Source of the DNA: Cytophagaceae bacterium
GTDB taxonomy: Bacteria > Bacteroidota > Bacteroidia > Cytophagales > JAIYAX01
Direction of reading: 5' to 3'
Assembly (NCBI GenBank): GCA_027488815.1
Contig: JAIYAX010000028.1
Coordinates: forward strand, 1-42,630
DNA length: 42,630 bases
This document shows, one piece after another, positions 13,525 to 18,271 of the stretch. How positions within the stretch are numbered: position 1 is the first letter of the stretch; every line of letters starts with the position of its first letter. The translations under genes were made by a program, and so were the position numbers. A model generated the notes under the pieces. It ran no database searches and was not told the origin of the DNA. It was given only the letters and a program-made list of their open reading frames with translations.

Positions 13525-16242
13525 GTGAAGTCTGGTATCGGATTACTGATTTTTCTTTTTTGGGTGCCATTTCAGGGCTTGTTTGCCCAGGGTCAGGTTC
13601 GTAGCGATACCCTAAACCGTAGCTTGCGCAGAAGCACTACCGATAGCCTTCAAACGGATTCGACAAGCTTAGCTGACAGTACCATGCAACGTAAAGGAGT
13701 CTACTCCAGTACAGGCAAGTCAGACATTGAGACCACAATCAAATATAAGTCAAAAGACAGTATACGCTTTGATGTAAAAAAGCAGGTGGTCACTCTCATT
13801 GGAGAGGCAGAAGTGAACTATGGCAACCTGAACATCACCGCCCACCAGATTGATATTTCATGGCTAACGAACGAGGTAACCGCAACCGGCACTGTCGATA
13901 CAGCAGGAAAAAATATTGGCACACCGATCTTTAAACAGGGATCAGAAAAATATGTGGCCAAGACCATCAGGTACAATTACAATAGTGCCAGAGGGCTGAT
14001 TTCTGATATCGTCACGCAGCAGGGGGAAGGCTACATCCATGGAACTCAGGTGAAGAAGGACAATACCACTGATTTCTACATTAACGATGCCCGCTATACC
14101 ACATGTAATCTGGCGGAGCCTCATTTTGAAATTCACGCCAGGCGGATTAAAATGATTAAGGACAAAAAGATTGTGACAGGCCCCTTTAACCTTCAAATCG
14201 AAAAGGTTCCTACCCCCTTCGGCTTTGGCTTTGGCATGTTTCCGACTTCTAACAAAACAAGAGTTTCCGGGGTGATCATCCCCTCATATGGAGAGGCGCA
14301 GGACAGAGGTTTTTTCCTGAGAGACGGAGGTTACTACTTTGGCTTTAGCGACTACTTCGACGCTAAAATTATGGGGGAGATCTACACCAAAGGTGGTTTT
14401 GGACTAAATAATGTTTTCCGATACCGTAAGCGCTATCATTATGATGGTAACCTCAATTTGCGCTATGTGAGAAGGCCTGATCCTGGATTTGACCTTGATG
14501 AAAAAGTATTTATCAGGGATGTGTGGTTCACCTGGGCACACAACCCGGTGCAAAGGGGAAATGACCGGTTTTCGGCAAATGTGCAGCTAGGAAGTGTCAA
14601 ATTCAATCAGCGAAATGCTTTTCAAACAGGTAACTTCCTTTCGAACAACTTCCAGTCTTCGGTTTCCTACTTTACCACTTTCCCGGGTACACCTTTTAAC
14701 CTGGCGATAAATGCCAACCAAAGCCAGAATACGGCAACACGAATTATGAATGTGGATCTGCCCAACATATCGTTCAACATGAACCAGATTCAGCCGTTCA
14801 GAAAAAAGACAAGTGCGGGCACAGCATGGTATGAAAAGATCAGAATGAGTTACCGGAATACCGCCGCAGCAAGGTTCTCCAACGCTCCAAAAGGAGCTGG
14901 CTTTTCTGGGATAAGAGTATCAAATGCAGGCCCTGCCGAAGTCGCACCCCTGCCCATTACAACTAGAGGGGATACTCTTAACCTGATCATTTCCAGGGCA
15001 AACTACGGTATGGCGCATGAGGTGCCGATTTCATCATCCTTCAGGATATTGAAGCATTTCAGCGTAAACCCCACCTTCACCTATCGTGAGCGTTGGTCTC
15101 CACGACAACTTAATTTTGGTCAATTCAACCCAACTGATAGCAGCATCAGGGTGGATACCATAAGCGGTTTTCGCCGAAACTATGATTATAGTTTCAGTAC
15201 TAATTTTACCACACAGTTATATGGCTTTTTCAAATTTGGCAGAAACGGGCCGATAGAGGCCATCCGACATAAAGTTCTACCCACCTTTGGGTTTGTCTAT
15301 AGCCCAGATTTTGGAGATCAGCGCTATGGTTTTTTCCAGAACAGGCAAATTAATCGCAAAGGTGACCGTCAAAACTTGAATACGTTCGAGGGAACTCTGT
15401 ATGGTGGTACCGGGCGAGGCCGTAGCCAAAGCCTCACTTTTGACATAGCCAACCAGCTGGAAATGAAGTTGAGCAACCGGAAAGACACCTCTCAGGCTAA
15501 AAAGAAGGTACCTTTGATTGAAAACTTTGGCTTCAACGGAGCCTATAACTTTGCGGCCGATAGCAACCGATTGTCAGTCATCAATTTCAACGCCCGTACC
15601 AGCGTCTTGGGCAAGCTCACCATCGCTTTCAATGGTACACTCAACCCTTATTTCATACAGGCAATCAGTTCATCTACGGTAAACGGAGTTCGTAGAGTGG
15701 AGCAATATCGGTCTCAAAGTATTTATGCCTGGAACCGGGGACAAGGCTTAGGGCAGGTGACCAATTACAGCCTGGTGTTCGGAACCAACCTGAACCCTGA
15801 TACATTCAAATCAAAAAACAAGAAGAAGCCAGCCGAAAAAGAAAAGCCCCCCGGAGTTTCTGAAGAAGAGTGGCGGCAAATTAAAAACAACCCCGAACGA
15901 TATGTGGATTTCAATTTGCCCTGGAGTTTAAACCTGAATTATAACCTCAACTACAGCAAAAATGGTTTTGAGGAAAAGCGTGTGACCCAAACGATGAATT
16001 TTGCAGGAGATATCAGACTTACCGAAAAATGGAAAGTTGGTTTTACTTCCGGCTTTGATTTCATCGCCAAAAACTTATCCTTTACCAGTGTGAACATTTT
16101 CAGGGATTTGCATTGCTGGCAGATGCGGCTTGACTGGATCCCTTTGGGCCCACGTCAGTCATTTGAGTTTAACATCAACGTAAAGTCCAGCCTTCTGCAG
16201 GATCTGAAGCTTAGCAAGCGTAACAATTGGTATGATCGATAG
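13525..16242 (+). CDS. LptD-like LPS assembly outer-membrane protein
   Basis: A 905-residue protein with a signal peptide (KSGIGLLIFLFWVPFQGLFAQ). A periplasmic OstA/LptA-like beta-jellyroll follows at about 75-160 (FDVKKQVVTLIGEAEVNYGN ... ITAHQIDI). The rest is a long beta-barrel rich in aromatic and alternating residues, ending in SFEFNINVKSSLLQDLKLSKRN. LptD inserts lipopolysaccharide into the outer leaflet with LptE. Bacteroidota versions are divergent, so this is a family-level call. Translation starts at a GTG (13525), which gives the best signal peptide. The 3' end is followed by the palindrome array. Confidence 0.85.
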   Translation: MKSGIGLLIFLFWVPFQGLFAQGQVRSDTLNRSLRRSTTDSLQTDSTSLADSTMQRKGVYSSTGKSDIETTIKYKSKDSIRFDVKKQVVTLIGEAEVNYGNLNITAHQIDISWLTNEVTATGTVDTAGKNIGTPIFKQGSEKYVAKTIRYNYNSARGLISDIVTQQGEGYIHGTQVKKDNTTDFYINDARYTTCNLAEPHFEIHARRIKMIKDKKIVTGPFNLQIEKVPTPFGFGFGMFPTSNKTRVSGVIIPSYGEAQDRGFFLRDGGYYFGFSDYFDAKIMGEIYTKGGFGLNNVFRYRKRYHYDGNLNLRYVRRPDPGFDLDEKVFIRDVWFTWAHNPVQRGNDRFSANVQLGSVKFNQRNAFQTGNFLSNNFQSSVSYFTTFPGTPFNLAINANQSQNTATRIMNVDLPNISFNMNQIQPFRKKTSAGTAWYEKIRMSYRNTAAARFSNAPKGAGFSGIRVSNAGPAEVAPLPITTRGDTLNLIISRANYGMAHEVPISSSFRILKHFSVNPTFTYRERWSPRQLNFGQFNPTDSSIRVDTISGFRRNYDYSFSTNFTTQLYGFFKFGRNGPIEAIRHKVLPTFGFVYSPDFGDQRYGFFQNRQINRKGDRQNLNTFEGTLYGGTGRGRSQSLTFDIANQLEMKLSNRKDTSQAKKKVPLIENFGFNGAYNFAADSNRLSVINFNARTSVLGKLTIAFNGTLNPYFIQAISSSTVNGVRRVEQYRSQSIYAWNRGQGLGQVTNYSLVFGTNLNPDTFKSKNKKKPAEKEKPPGVSEEEWRQIKNNPERYVDFNLPWSLNLNYNLNYSKNGFEEKRVTQTMNFAGDIRLTEKWKVGFTSGFDFIAKNLSFTSVNIFRDLHCWQMRLDWIPLGPRQSFEFNINVKSSLLQDLKLSKRNNWYDR

Positions 16243-16345
16243 GGAGTTAAAATTTAAAATGTTCAACGAATGGCTTATTTGTCGTGGAAACTACTTTGAC
16301 CAGATTTTGTCCCTACGGGACAATACCCATCAAAAACGCTATGGT

Positions 16346-16742
16346 TTCTAATCGATATACTGTGCCTAAAGGCACAGGCAATCAGCTAAACCAATTAGGC
16401 CACTGCATAGAAAAGCCCGTTAGGGACAAAACAATCCGAGAACACAATTTCTAATCGATATACTGTGCCTAAAGCCACAGGCAATCAGCTAAACCAATTG
16501 GGCCACTGCATAGAAAAGCCCGTTAGGGCTTTAATATTGGTAAGAATCCACACCGAATATGCTTAGTTGTCCCGTTAGGGACAAAATCTAATGATCCTAA
16601 CCAGTCCAAATGATACGTTTATTATAGCATGATGATTAACCACCTTTTCAAGCCAAGTACTAAATAGCACCCTTGGCCCTCTACATCGATTTAAACTAAT
16701 TTAATGACCAGATTTTGTCCCTACAGGACAACGCAATCCGAG
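16346..16742. repeat. Long direct repeat, copy 1 (partner 17047-17443)
   Basis: About 397 bp match the second copy at a constant offset of 701 bp without indels. By eye there are roughly 14 mismatches. It covers two B hairpins, a C/A chimera, a C hairpin, an A' hairpin and the next A hairpin, plus the ~130-bp linker after A'. Confidence 0.8.
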
Positions 16743-17484
16743 AGCTCACGATTACTAATCGATATACTGTGCCTAAAGGCACAGGCCAGCGATCAAACTA
16801 CTCGGCCATATCAGTAAGGCTTTTGCGGCGATAAAAAAACTATTTCATACCTAGATTTTGTCCCTACAGGACAACACAATCCGAGAGCACACGATTTCTA
16901 ATCGACATACTGTGCCTAAAGGCATAGGCCTTCATCCAATCCATGATTACGCCTCTGAAAAGCCCATAAGACTTCTTTAGCTGTAAAAACCAACCTAATG
17001 ACTAGATTTTGTCCCTACAGGACAACACAATCCGAGAGCACACGATTTCTAATCGATATACTGTGCCTAAAGGCACAGGCAATCAGCTAAACCAATTGGG
17101 CCACTGCATAGAAAAGCCCGTTAGGGACAAAACAATCCGAGAACACAATTTCTACTCGATATACTGTGCCTAAAGGCACCGGTCATCAGCTAAACCAATT
17201 GGGCCACTGCATAGAAAAGCCCGTTAGGGCTTTAATATGGGTAAGAATCCACATCGAATATGCTTAGTTGTCCCGTTAGGGACAAAATCTAATGATCCTA
17301 ACCAGCCCAAATGATACGTTTATTATAGCATGATGATTAACCACCTTTTCAAGCCAAGTACTAAATAGCACCCTTGGTCCTCTACATCGATTTAAGCTAA
17401 TTTCATAACCAGATTTTGTCCCTACAGGACAACACAATCCGAGAGCACACGATTTCTACTCGATATACTGTGCCTAAAGGCACA
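16361..17484. repeat. Hairpin family B (TGTGCC-TAAA-GGCACA), 7 copies
   Basis: Copies lie at 16361-16376, 16464-16479, 16768-16783, 16911-16926, 17062-17077, 17165-17180 and 17469-17484. Four are perfect 6-bp stems; 16464, 16911 and 17165 each carry one arm mismatch. Each is preceded by CTAATCGATATAC or a close variant. Confidence 0.85.
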
Positions 17485-17537
17485 GGCAATCAGCTAAACC
17501 AATCGGACCGCTGCATAGAAAAGCCCGTTAGGGCATT
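16412..17537. repeat. Hairpin family C (AAAGCCC-GTTA-GGGCTTT), 3 copies plus 2 chimeras
   Basis: True copies are at 16515-16532, 17216-17233 and 17520-17537 (one mismatch). At 16412-16429 and 17113-17130 the left arm is family C but the right arm and the following sequence are family A (GGGACAA then an AATCCGAGA linker), so the outer arms cannot pair. A decayed copy sits near 16959-16977. Confidence 0.8.
17047..17443. repeat. Long direct repeat, copy 2 (partner 16346-16742)
   Basis: This is the second copy of the ~397-bp unit. Several differences fall in hairpin B at 17165-17180 and its flank. The strict 701-bp offset suggests one segmental duplication of part of the array. Confidence 0.8.
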
Positions 17538-17654
17538 AATATGGGTAAGAATCCACACCGAATATGCTTAGTTGTCCCGTTAGGGTCAAAACCAATTCTC
17601 GGCTTTCAATTTTAAACCTGCTACTATGACTCCCAAGCTCGCCTAAAAATCTTG

Positions 17655-18116
17655 TTAGTCCAGGCTTTTAAACAGGAAGGTCTCATTGTAATCAATCTCA
17701 AACTCTGTTAGTAATTCTAGATACTCCTCATTAAAGGTTTTCTTTTTATGATGAGCTTCCTGATTTTCAATGTATTGTATCACATTATTTAGTTGTGACA
17801 TTCCATAGGAAAATGCCCCATAACCCTCTTGCCAGCTAAATTTCCCTTTCACAAACCCTCTTGAATTAATCCACTTTGATGAGTCTCCTTTTACATCTTG
17901 CATCAATTCTGATAAAGACTGTGTTGGTCTCATGCCAAAAAAAATATGAACATGATCAGGCATCCCATTTATAGCCAAAACTTTGTGATGATGATTTTGA
18001 ATGATTCCGGTCATGTACTTATACAGCTCATCTTTCCAATCCTTATGGATAATGCAGTCACGATTTCGGACTGCAAAAACTGCCTGAATATGTATTTGTG
18101 TGTAAGTATTTGCCAT
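17655..18116 (-). CDS. IS200/IS605-type Y1 transposase (RAYT-like)
   Basis: A single-domain HUH endonuclease of 153 residues, counting from the ATG at 18116 (MANTYTQIHI). An upstream ATG at 18146 would add 10 residues. It has the HUH pair His55/His57 in DHVHIFF and the catalytic Tyr115 in QYIENQ with Gln119, so the active site looks intact. Such enzymes cut and rejoin single-stranded DNA at subterminal hairpins. There is no tnpB beside it and no clear IS ends. Its 3' end lies 66 bp from a dense hairpin array, the typical picture of a domesticated REP-associated transposase. It could also be a lone tnpA of a decayed IS200 element. Confidence 0.88.
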   Translation of the reverse strand: MANTYTQIHIQAVFAVRNRDCIIHKDWKDELYKYMTGIIQNHHHKVLAINGMPDHVHIFFGMRPTQSLSELMQDVKGDSSKWINSRGFVKGKFSWQEGYGAFSYGMSQLNNVIQYIENQEAHHKKKTFNEEYLELLTEFEIDYNETFLFKSLD

Positions 18117-18271
18117 TTTTTTCAGTGAATAAAGTTTTGAATACAACCATAGTTTGCACTACCAATTCCTGTAGATTTCTGCTAAATGAAATCAGATCAA
18201 AAACAGCTATAATTAGTGAATTGAACTACTTAACTCCTCTACTTAGCTTATATTGGCGTGGATTGTTTCTA

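Follow-up and report, generated by a model that had tools for sequence, protein, structure and literature searches.

A regular hairpin array beside an HuH Y1 transposase gene of a Cytophagaceae bacterium and its probable origin in two-hairpin transposase ends

What sets the spacing of a run of hairpins that lie ~52 bp apart, and does it have to do with the transposase gene next to them? The question is raised by the window analyzed here, a stretch of 42,630 nucleotides (contig C18) from the genome of a Cytophagaceae bacterium (3,374,941 bases in 30 contigs), in which such an array occupies the space between two convergent genes, one ending at 16242 and the other, tnpA, at 17655. A preliminary description took the spacing, about five turns of B-DNA, as helical phasing that would place the hairpins on one face of double-stranded DNA, where the transposase or a nucleoid protein could bind them cooperatively. 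From comparisons with other arrays and loci, we propose instead that the array is probably a REP/MITE-like array of cognate ends of the neighboring HuH Y1 transposase, its pitch being set by a transposase complex that holds two hairpins.

The hairpin array and the neighboring tnpA gene

The basic unit is polar and consists of an outer hairpin with a loop of 3-4 nt, a GGTAG/GGTAA-type box, and a second hairpin of the same orientation ~52 bp from the first. We give the position of the box as an offset, where offset 15 places its T exactly 15 nt beyond the base that immediately follows the outer-hairpin loop. The features of the locus are as follows.

16307..17589, no strand: hairpin array; modules of hairpins A, B, C, and D, neighbors ~52 bp apart, with two 147.5-bp D-to-A intervals
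Hairpin A stem, within 16307..17589: TTGTCC..GGACAA
Hairpin B stem, within 16307..17589: TGTGCCTAAAGGCACA
Hairpin C stem, within 16307..17589: AGCCCGTTAGGGCT
Hairpin D stem, within 16307..17589: TTGTCCCGTTAGGGACAA
16515..16584, + strand: best complete polar unit, C-box-D; outer C centered at 16523.5, box GGTAAG with T at 16541 (offset 15), inner D centered at 16575.5, 52 bp apart
16585..16714, no strand: filler separating D from A, repeated at 17286-17415
17216..17285, + strand: second polar unit, C-box-D; centers 17224.5 and 17276.5, box T at 17242, inside the 97% identical 300-bp copy
17416..17485, - strand: opposite-orientation unit; outer B at 17476.5, box-like TATATCGAGTAGAAA at offset 16, inner A at 17424
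17520..17589, + strand: polar unit C-box-D adjoining the tnpA 3' end; centers 17528.5 and 17580.5, one mismatch in each, box T at 17546
17655..18113, - strand: tnpA, Y1 HuH transposase with DHVH and YIENQEAHH, 152 aa from the ATG, PF01797 at 103.7 bits
18159..18167, - strand: box-like AATTGGTAG, ~50 bp before the tnpA ATG, read by eye

In a mechanical scan, steps between perfect neighboring hairpins in the window are 53.5, 52, 52.5, 52.5, 52, and 52.5 bp. The seven centers that the preliminary description quotes for its period are all hairpins, four of them perfect (17424, 17476.5, 16523.5, and 16575.5) and three with one mismatch each (16471.5, 17528.5, and 17580.5). The period itself is confirmed: perfect neighbors are 52-53.5 bp apart, with other steps of 147.5 bp (twice), 151 bp, and 90.5 bp where filler or degenerate copies come between them.

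We read the array as modules of the form C-D-(filler or tnpA)-A-B joined outer to outer. In this scheme, outer C and inner D would form the end next to tnpA, and outer B with inner A would form the other one. Read this way, the unit at 17520..17589 is the downstream end of the gene-bearing element, the filler at 16585..16714 would take the place held there by tnpA, and the array would represent units in tandem, some directly joined and some with filler between them, next to one copy that carries tnpA. The box offset of the opposite-orientation unit was counted by hand, and this unit was missed by the offset-15 unit scan. The box-like stretch at 18159..18167 is possibly a remnant of the upstream end of tnpA that has lost its hairpins. 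The array does not have the CRISPR-like pattern of identical repeats with unrelated spacers: its linkers recur inside arrays and its hairpin types alternate.

A 300-bp block at 16345 is present again at 17046, 701 bp away, with 97% identity, so the repetition inside the window is partly recent duplication. The regular spacing could accordingly be passive inheritance, in which one ancestral module was duplicated and its constant spacing reflects common descent without constraint. The same genome has further arrays on contigs C16, C5, and C29, plus a copy at the start of C21, all found by pattern searches. On C16, 21 successive steps are 49.5-52.5 bp (degenerate copies recognized by the pattern being counted in), and on C5 and C29 some steps are 50-54 bp and others longer. 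Hairpin B, allowing one mismatch, occurs at 12 places in the genome, every one of them inside an array. For four arrays, we compared the first linker of each kind (A-B, B-C, and C-D; 11 of 12 found). Their lengths are 35-38 nt, and their identity from one array to another is 46-65%, compared with a mean of 40-42% for shuffled linkers. They are homologous but diverged, with their length preserved: their likeness above the shuffled level is what passive inheritance predicts, yet the constancy of length at this divergence speaks against it. The ~52-bp ladder is real. Recent duplication of one module, which the preliminary description names as a possible refutation, explains part of the window but not the ladder as a whole, since elsewhere linkers have diverged and stems differ. 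Outer-outer joints (B-C) in this genome likewise span ~52 bp. As to the setting of these arrays, those of the window and C29 both lie between convergent genes. Two contigs, C5 at its end (locus L018) and C21 at its start (L016), break within or next to arrays that share sequence, and arrays may therefore be longer than the assembly shows.

The predicted tnpA product is an IS200/IS605-type Y1 transposase by its HuH motif, catalytic Tyr, and Y1_Tnp domain. It scores 78.2 bits against the IS200 model NF033573 (cut-off 55) and 35.5 bits against the RAYT model NF047646, below the cut-off of 80, and is by these profiles not a RAYT-type transposase. PF01797 is matched by 20/20 aligned family members, D-H-x-H and Y...Q are invariant in the aligned relatives, and the family matches 8 distinct PDB sequences, including 2xm3 and 2a6m; the solved TnpA structures include that of ISHp608. 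The Y motif Y---Q--HH is found in 212 of 218 open frames, including that of the window, and this motif together with similarity to IS200 TnpA fits assignment to TnpAY1 subclass 1.2, a group of short proteins with Y---Q--HH and, in the published profile, a conserved C-terminal domain that occurs in Bacteroidetes among others (Quentin et al. 2018, PMC6006769). In that account, the table says "no" under REP for this subclass, and the text describes it as generally without typical IS200 terminal structures.

The genome has two matches to the window TnpA at E <= 1e-15, with identities of 100% and 34%. The latter (L002, C10:69968-70396) is a second, divergent subclass 1.2 transposase with long CACGGTTTAAACCGTG hairpins of its own, so two systems co-reside in this genome. 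There are also RAYT-like transposase genes on C10, C17, C6, and C4, two of which exceed the family cut-off. Counting this genome, relatives of TnpA are present in 87 of 194 genomes of a nearest-relatives sample (E <= 1e-15) and, with other clades included, in 132 of the 296 genomes that sample the phylum (E <= 1e-12).

Paired hairpins and boxes beside relatives of the transposase

To this locus we compared 60 matches picked mainly by score and 80 named loci, giving 141 with the window and 138 once 3 duplicates were removed; the loci are mutually related and were selected by similarity to the window protein. An unbiased scan of the 138 loci gives 1.29 perfect hairpins per kb within 1.5 kb of the gene versus 0.42 per kb beyond 2.5 kb. 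Pair distances beside these 138 non-redundant transposase genes peak at 50-53 bp (10, 13, 12, and 10 loci), and the far flanks (>2.5 kb from the gene) contain zero hairpin pairs at 48-55 bp. A perfect pair at 48-56 bp occurs in 38/138 loci, compared with 4-14 loci for other nine-base ranges within 20-100 bp. The preference for ~52 bp thus extends from the arrays of one genome, including the 21 steps on C16, to the relatives of its transposase, and the suggested tie to the neighboring Y1 gene is borne out by a spacing widely conserved beside its clade. Binding of the transposase to the hairpins would be the natural reading.

Positions relative to the gene ends were taken from 115 intact genes with >=200 bp on either side, setting aside 23 of the 138. 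Hairpin centers cluster 12-15 and 64-79 bp past the stop codon and 16-31 and 68-83 bp ahead of the ATG, and 47/115 loci have a gene-adjacent pair at 40-66 bp in a relaxed scan. A tally of any hairpin within 100 bp of the gene (94/115) was discarded, since the relaxed scan has a high background. In L083 and L131, a box (TTCGGTA and GTCGGTA, respectively) after the inner hairpin runs straight into the tnpA start codon.

Further comparisons used clade I, the 150 loci scoring >140 bits, which form a contiguous block of the protein tree. A same-orientation pair at 47-57 bp was detected in only 76/150 of them: 40 from Bacteroidota, 3 from Ignavibacteriota, and 33 without a phylum name. Stem sequences differ between loci of Bacteroidota and Ignavibacteriota, though the pair spacing recurs.

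Loops provide the polarity of the hairpins. Common upstream loops are GTA, GTTA, AGC, and ATA, whose reverse complements are among the common downstream loops. When orientation is learnt from one half of the 150 clade I loci and tested on the other, loops invert across tnpA, with 42 forward and 1 reverse upstream and 3 forward and 52 reverse downstream in the held-out half. More than 110 bp from the gene, a zone outside the hairpins used for orientation training, same-orientation neighbors are found at 48-51 bp in 26 loci and at 52-55 bp in 21, whereas opposite-orientation neighbors at those distances number 2-3 loci per bin and arrangement. Since same-orientation neighbors dominate at 48-55 bp, head-to-tail pairing mainly accounts for the ~52-bp distance.

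The box, with a sequence near AATATTGGTAGAAAA, is conserved on the inward side of the outer hairpin at both ends and absent from inner-hairpin logos. Starting from the box, a pattern picked after these loci were seen (held-out testing covers loop orientation only), a complementary 4-bp stem lies at offset 15 for 86/113 boxes (77 loci), and any other offset from 8 to 26 accounts for <=4%. The same box-first test gives 23 different 5-nt stems at offsets 14-16 combined. Within 1.5 kb of clade I genes, 288/1204 boxes have a stem at offset 15, compared with 2-20 at other offsets. Offset 15 also has the top count in the far flanks of clade I (15/782 boxes; other offsets 3-14) and in divergent loci (12/460; others 1-10), and it does not stand out in RAYT loci (4/173; others 0-4). 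Among same-orientation pairs at 47-57 bp (76/150 loci), TA stands at offset 15 in 155/168 first members versus 51/168 second members, so the polarity is not absolute. Counted by locus, 124/150 clade I loci have a unit with a 5-bp stem no more than 1.5 kb from the gene (other offsets, 11-19: 9-20/150), compared with 11/57 divergent subclass 1.2 loci (other offsets 4-10) and 2/30 RAYT loci (other offsets 0-5). Thus, the strict distance is that from hairpin to box, not from hairpin to hairpin.

A plasmid of Bernardetia, not knowingly in the locus set and whose flanks were first read once the rule was seen, carries four GTTGC..GCAAC hairpins at spacings of 51, 56, and 53 bp. The first two are forward and the last two reverse, and each of the outer hairpins has TTTGTAGAA at offset 15. 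A search of plasmids placed its module at two positions in its own record and none elsewhere. In a separate pattern scan, viral contigs yielded 21 raw matching stretches.

These results also bear on a role in RNA, in which the hairpins would act as terminators, attenuators, or mRNA stabilizers in transcripts and the transposase would be incidental. The convergent setting of the window and C29 arrays and the inner hairpins just ahead of the start codon and past the stop codon in many loci are compatible with such a role. However, the loops invert from one side of the gene to the other, which favors neither transcript strand; the box is present at both ends; and the unit tracks the transposase clade. 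An Rfam search of 16000-18200 gave one chance snoRNA match below the gathering score, and no family reached that score. We regard an RNA-level explanation as highly improbable.

Spacing, helical phase, and sister clades

If the hairpins were phased on one face of the double helix, spacings should gather at whole turns. Using the median spacing per locus of same-orientation neighbors at 30-75 bp, we found 76/82 loci at 47-57 bp, 2 at 37-46 bp, and 3 at 58-68 bp, with no cluster one helical turn away, near 42 or 63 bp. The core spacing has a mean of 51.66 bp, near the 52.5 bp of five turns, and within loci it is tight (median sd 0.75 bp in 19 loci with >=3 pairs), both of which would suit phasing. 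Between loci, however, its sd is 2.65 bp, about 90 degrees of twist, and the phase concentration at 10.5 bp is 0.35 versus 0.28 for a normal curve of equal width.

Sister clades add to this. In divergent subclass 1.2 clades, pairs, measured without regard to their relative orientation, are mostly 28-30 bp apart (2.7-2.9 turns), though a few are at 31-32 bp, near three turns. Mapped on a tree of 207 proteins (229 loci minus 11 without a 110-aa open frame and 11 redundant), the spacing label, available for 52/207 proteins, changes 8 times, compared with a mean of 13.8 and a minimum of 10 in 300 shuffles. The 29 label is found on four clade I loci and the 52 label on five divergent loci; because both groups include exceptions, the spacing rule is a tendency. 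It looks like a clade-specific length rule with exceptions and not a helical face. Moreover, the polarity of the unit, the inversion of its loops, and the exact distance between hairpin and box are signs of hairpin recognition. Thus, the helical phasing advanced in the preliminary description is not supported, and we consider it unlikely. Some divergent loci (within L191-L250) have long single CCCACG..CGTGGG hairpins near the gene ends instead of pairs.

Twenty divergent matches and L002, first considered as a non-member control, turned out to have both the subclass 1.2 motif and hairpins of their own. They were therefore replaced by 30 RAYT loci, and in these loci, of the same order, there is no peak at 48-55 bp (1/30). 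Perfect hairpin pairs 28-31 bp apart are seen in 8/30 of them (L327-L356).

The comparison across loci also bears on passive inheritance. Besides the 97% identical 300-bp blocks of the window, local copying is evident in Flavobacterium L083, with near-perfect 53-bp tandem units, and in Algoriphagus G090, with modules of ~180 bp repeated at the tnpA locus. Descent of this kind nevertheless leaves the data poorly explained, in that stems vary across Bacteroidota and Ignavibacteriota while the median spacing stays at 47-57 bp in 76/82 loci, and the hairpin-box distance is exact. As the whole explanation, it seems quite unlikely to us.

Two-hairpin ends and their relation to known elements

An account of the array has to accommodate what is observed in these loci: the anatomy and polarity of the unit, its inversion across the gene, the exact hairpin-box distance, the restricted pair spacing, and the association with the transposase clade. 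In the family as a whole, the autonomous element is tnpA between two inverted two-hairpin units. TnpA would bind and cleave these units and make them mobile. TnpA of IS608 and ISDra2 acts as a dimer; by analogy, a TnpA dimer would grip both hairpins of one unit where the DNA is exposed as a single strand, the box at its fixed distance from the outer hairpin would be the cleavage or guide sequence, and the ~52-nt pitch would be the length that lets one complex hold both hairpins. With two hairpins gripped by one TnpA complex, spacing would be a property of the transposase clade and not of a face of double-stranded DNA. Arrays would grow via exchange between units or by their duplication. Several observations count against this explanation: the B box of the window lies at offset 16, the upstream end of the window tnpA is decayed, pairs were detected in only 76/150 clade I loci and, beside the gene, in 47/115, TA also stands at offset 15 in 51/168 second members, and the ~52-bp outer-outer joints are not required by the idea of two-hairpin ends.

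In a bolder version, the ~52-nt hairpin-box-hairpin unit would itself be the minimal single-strand transposition unit, similar to a right-end/left-end junction. Boxes would be cut one pitch apart and units inserted into other boxes, arrays would grow in ~52-nt steps, and each clade would have its own offset and pitch that keep co-resident systems apart. We put this forward tentatively, as a doubtful though conceivable extension of the two-hairpin reading.

Copies in other genomes bear on mobility. In G090, the same contig as Algoriphagus boritolerans L142, the tnpA copy is a module split between its inner hairpins (28-103, gene, 130-231), and six of seven further module matches at this locus start where the outer hairpin has its foot (query 28-30). 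Every near-full-length match is a local tandem copy, and three weak fragments match outside the tnpA locus. For the hemF-hemB interval of Flavobacterium, 147/150 genomes matched hemB and 30 of the loci were inspected. A tnpA with hairpins lies between hemF and hemB in L298 and L303 among these 30 and also in L148 and L136 from the named loci; the other 28/30 show no tnpA there, and for four of them no adjacent hemF was found. This survey gives presence and absence with no exact junction, and no exact empty site or target sequence was found. In L303 and L148, the outer hairpin and the stop codon of hemF, the host gene, overlap, and in L303 the end of hemF with its hairpin is duplicated in tandem.

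The proposed ends share features with several known systems. Each end of IS608 and ISDra2 has a single subterminal hairpin; the two hairpins lie on the same strand, and the ends are asymmetric. As in IS200/IS605 elements such as these, the loci here combine an HuH-Y1 transposase with subterminal hairpins and a sequence presumably read beside them; unlike in IS608 and ISDra2, two-hairpin ends are common (the 47/115 loci of the relaxed scan) and the ends are inverted. Like REP, BIME, and REPIN sequences with TnpAREP (RAYT), together the REPtron, they are short intergenic palindromes clustered round a Y1 transposase gene and elsewhere, with a GTAG-like tetranucleotide and an inverted arrangement across the gene. 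However, the transposase is not a RAYT, and the box lies at a fixed offset, ~10 nt 3' of the outer core stem, whereas REP palindromes have GT[AG]G at their 5' foot. As in MITEs and REPINs, gene-less copies retain both ends, and the G090 tnpA copy is the module split midway; unlike them, the elements have four hairpins in two polar pairs, and copies amount to four arrays and one contig start here and to local tandem repeats in G090. BIME linkers are described as variable in length (PMC8266576), whereas the linkers here are nearly fixed.

For subclass 1.2, which as published has no REP or IS ends (PMC6006769), we find a paired-hairpin end in 124/150 clade I loci. In the part of the open-licence PMC literature that we searched, subscription papers aside, we found no description of such ends in this group of transposases. 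Our analysis thus proposes concrete DNA substrates for a group of HuH transposases described as lacking such ends and turns a set of regular hairpins into a testable rule: two hairpins ~52 bp apart with a box at offset 15. The different spacings of sister clades further suggest that the geometry of single-stranded DNA transposase complexes may be readable from genome sequence.
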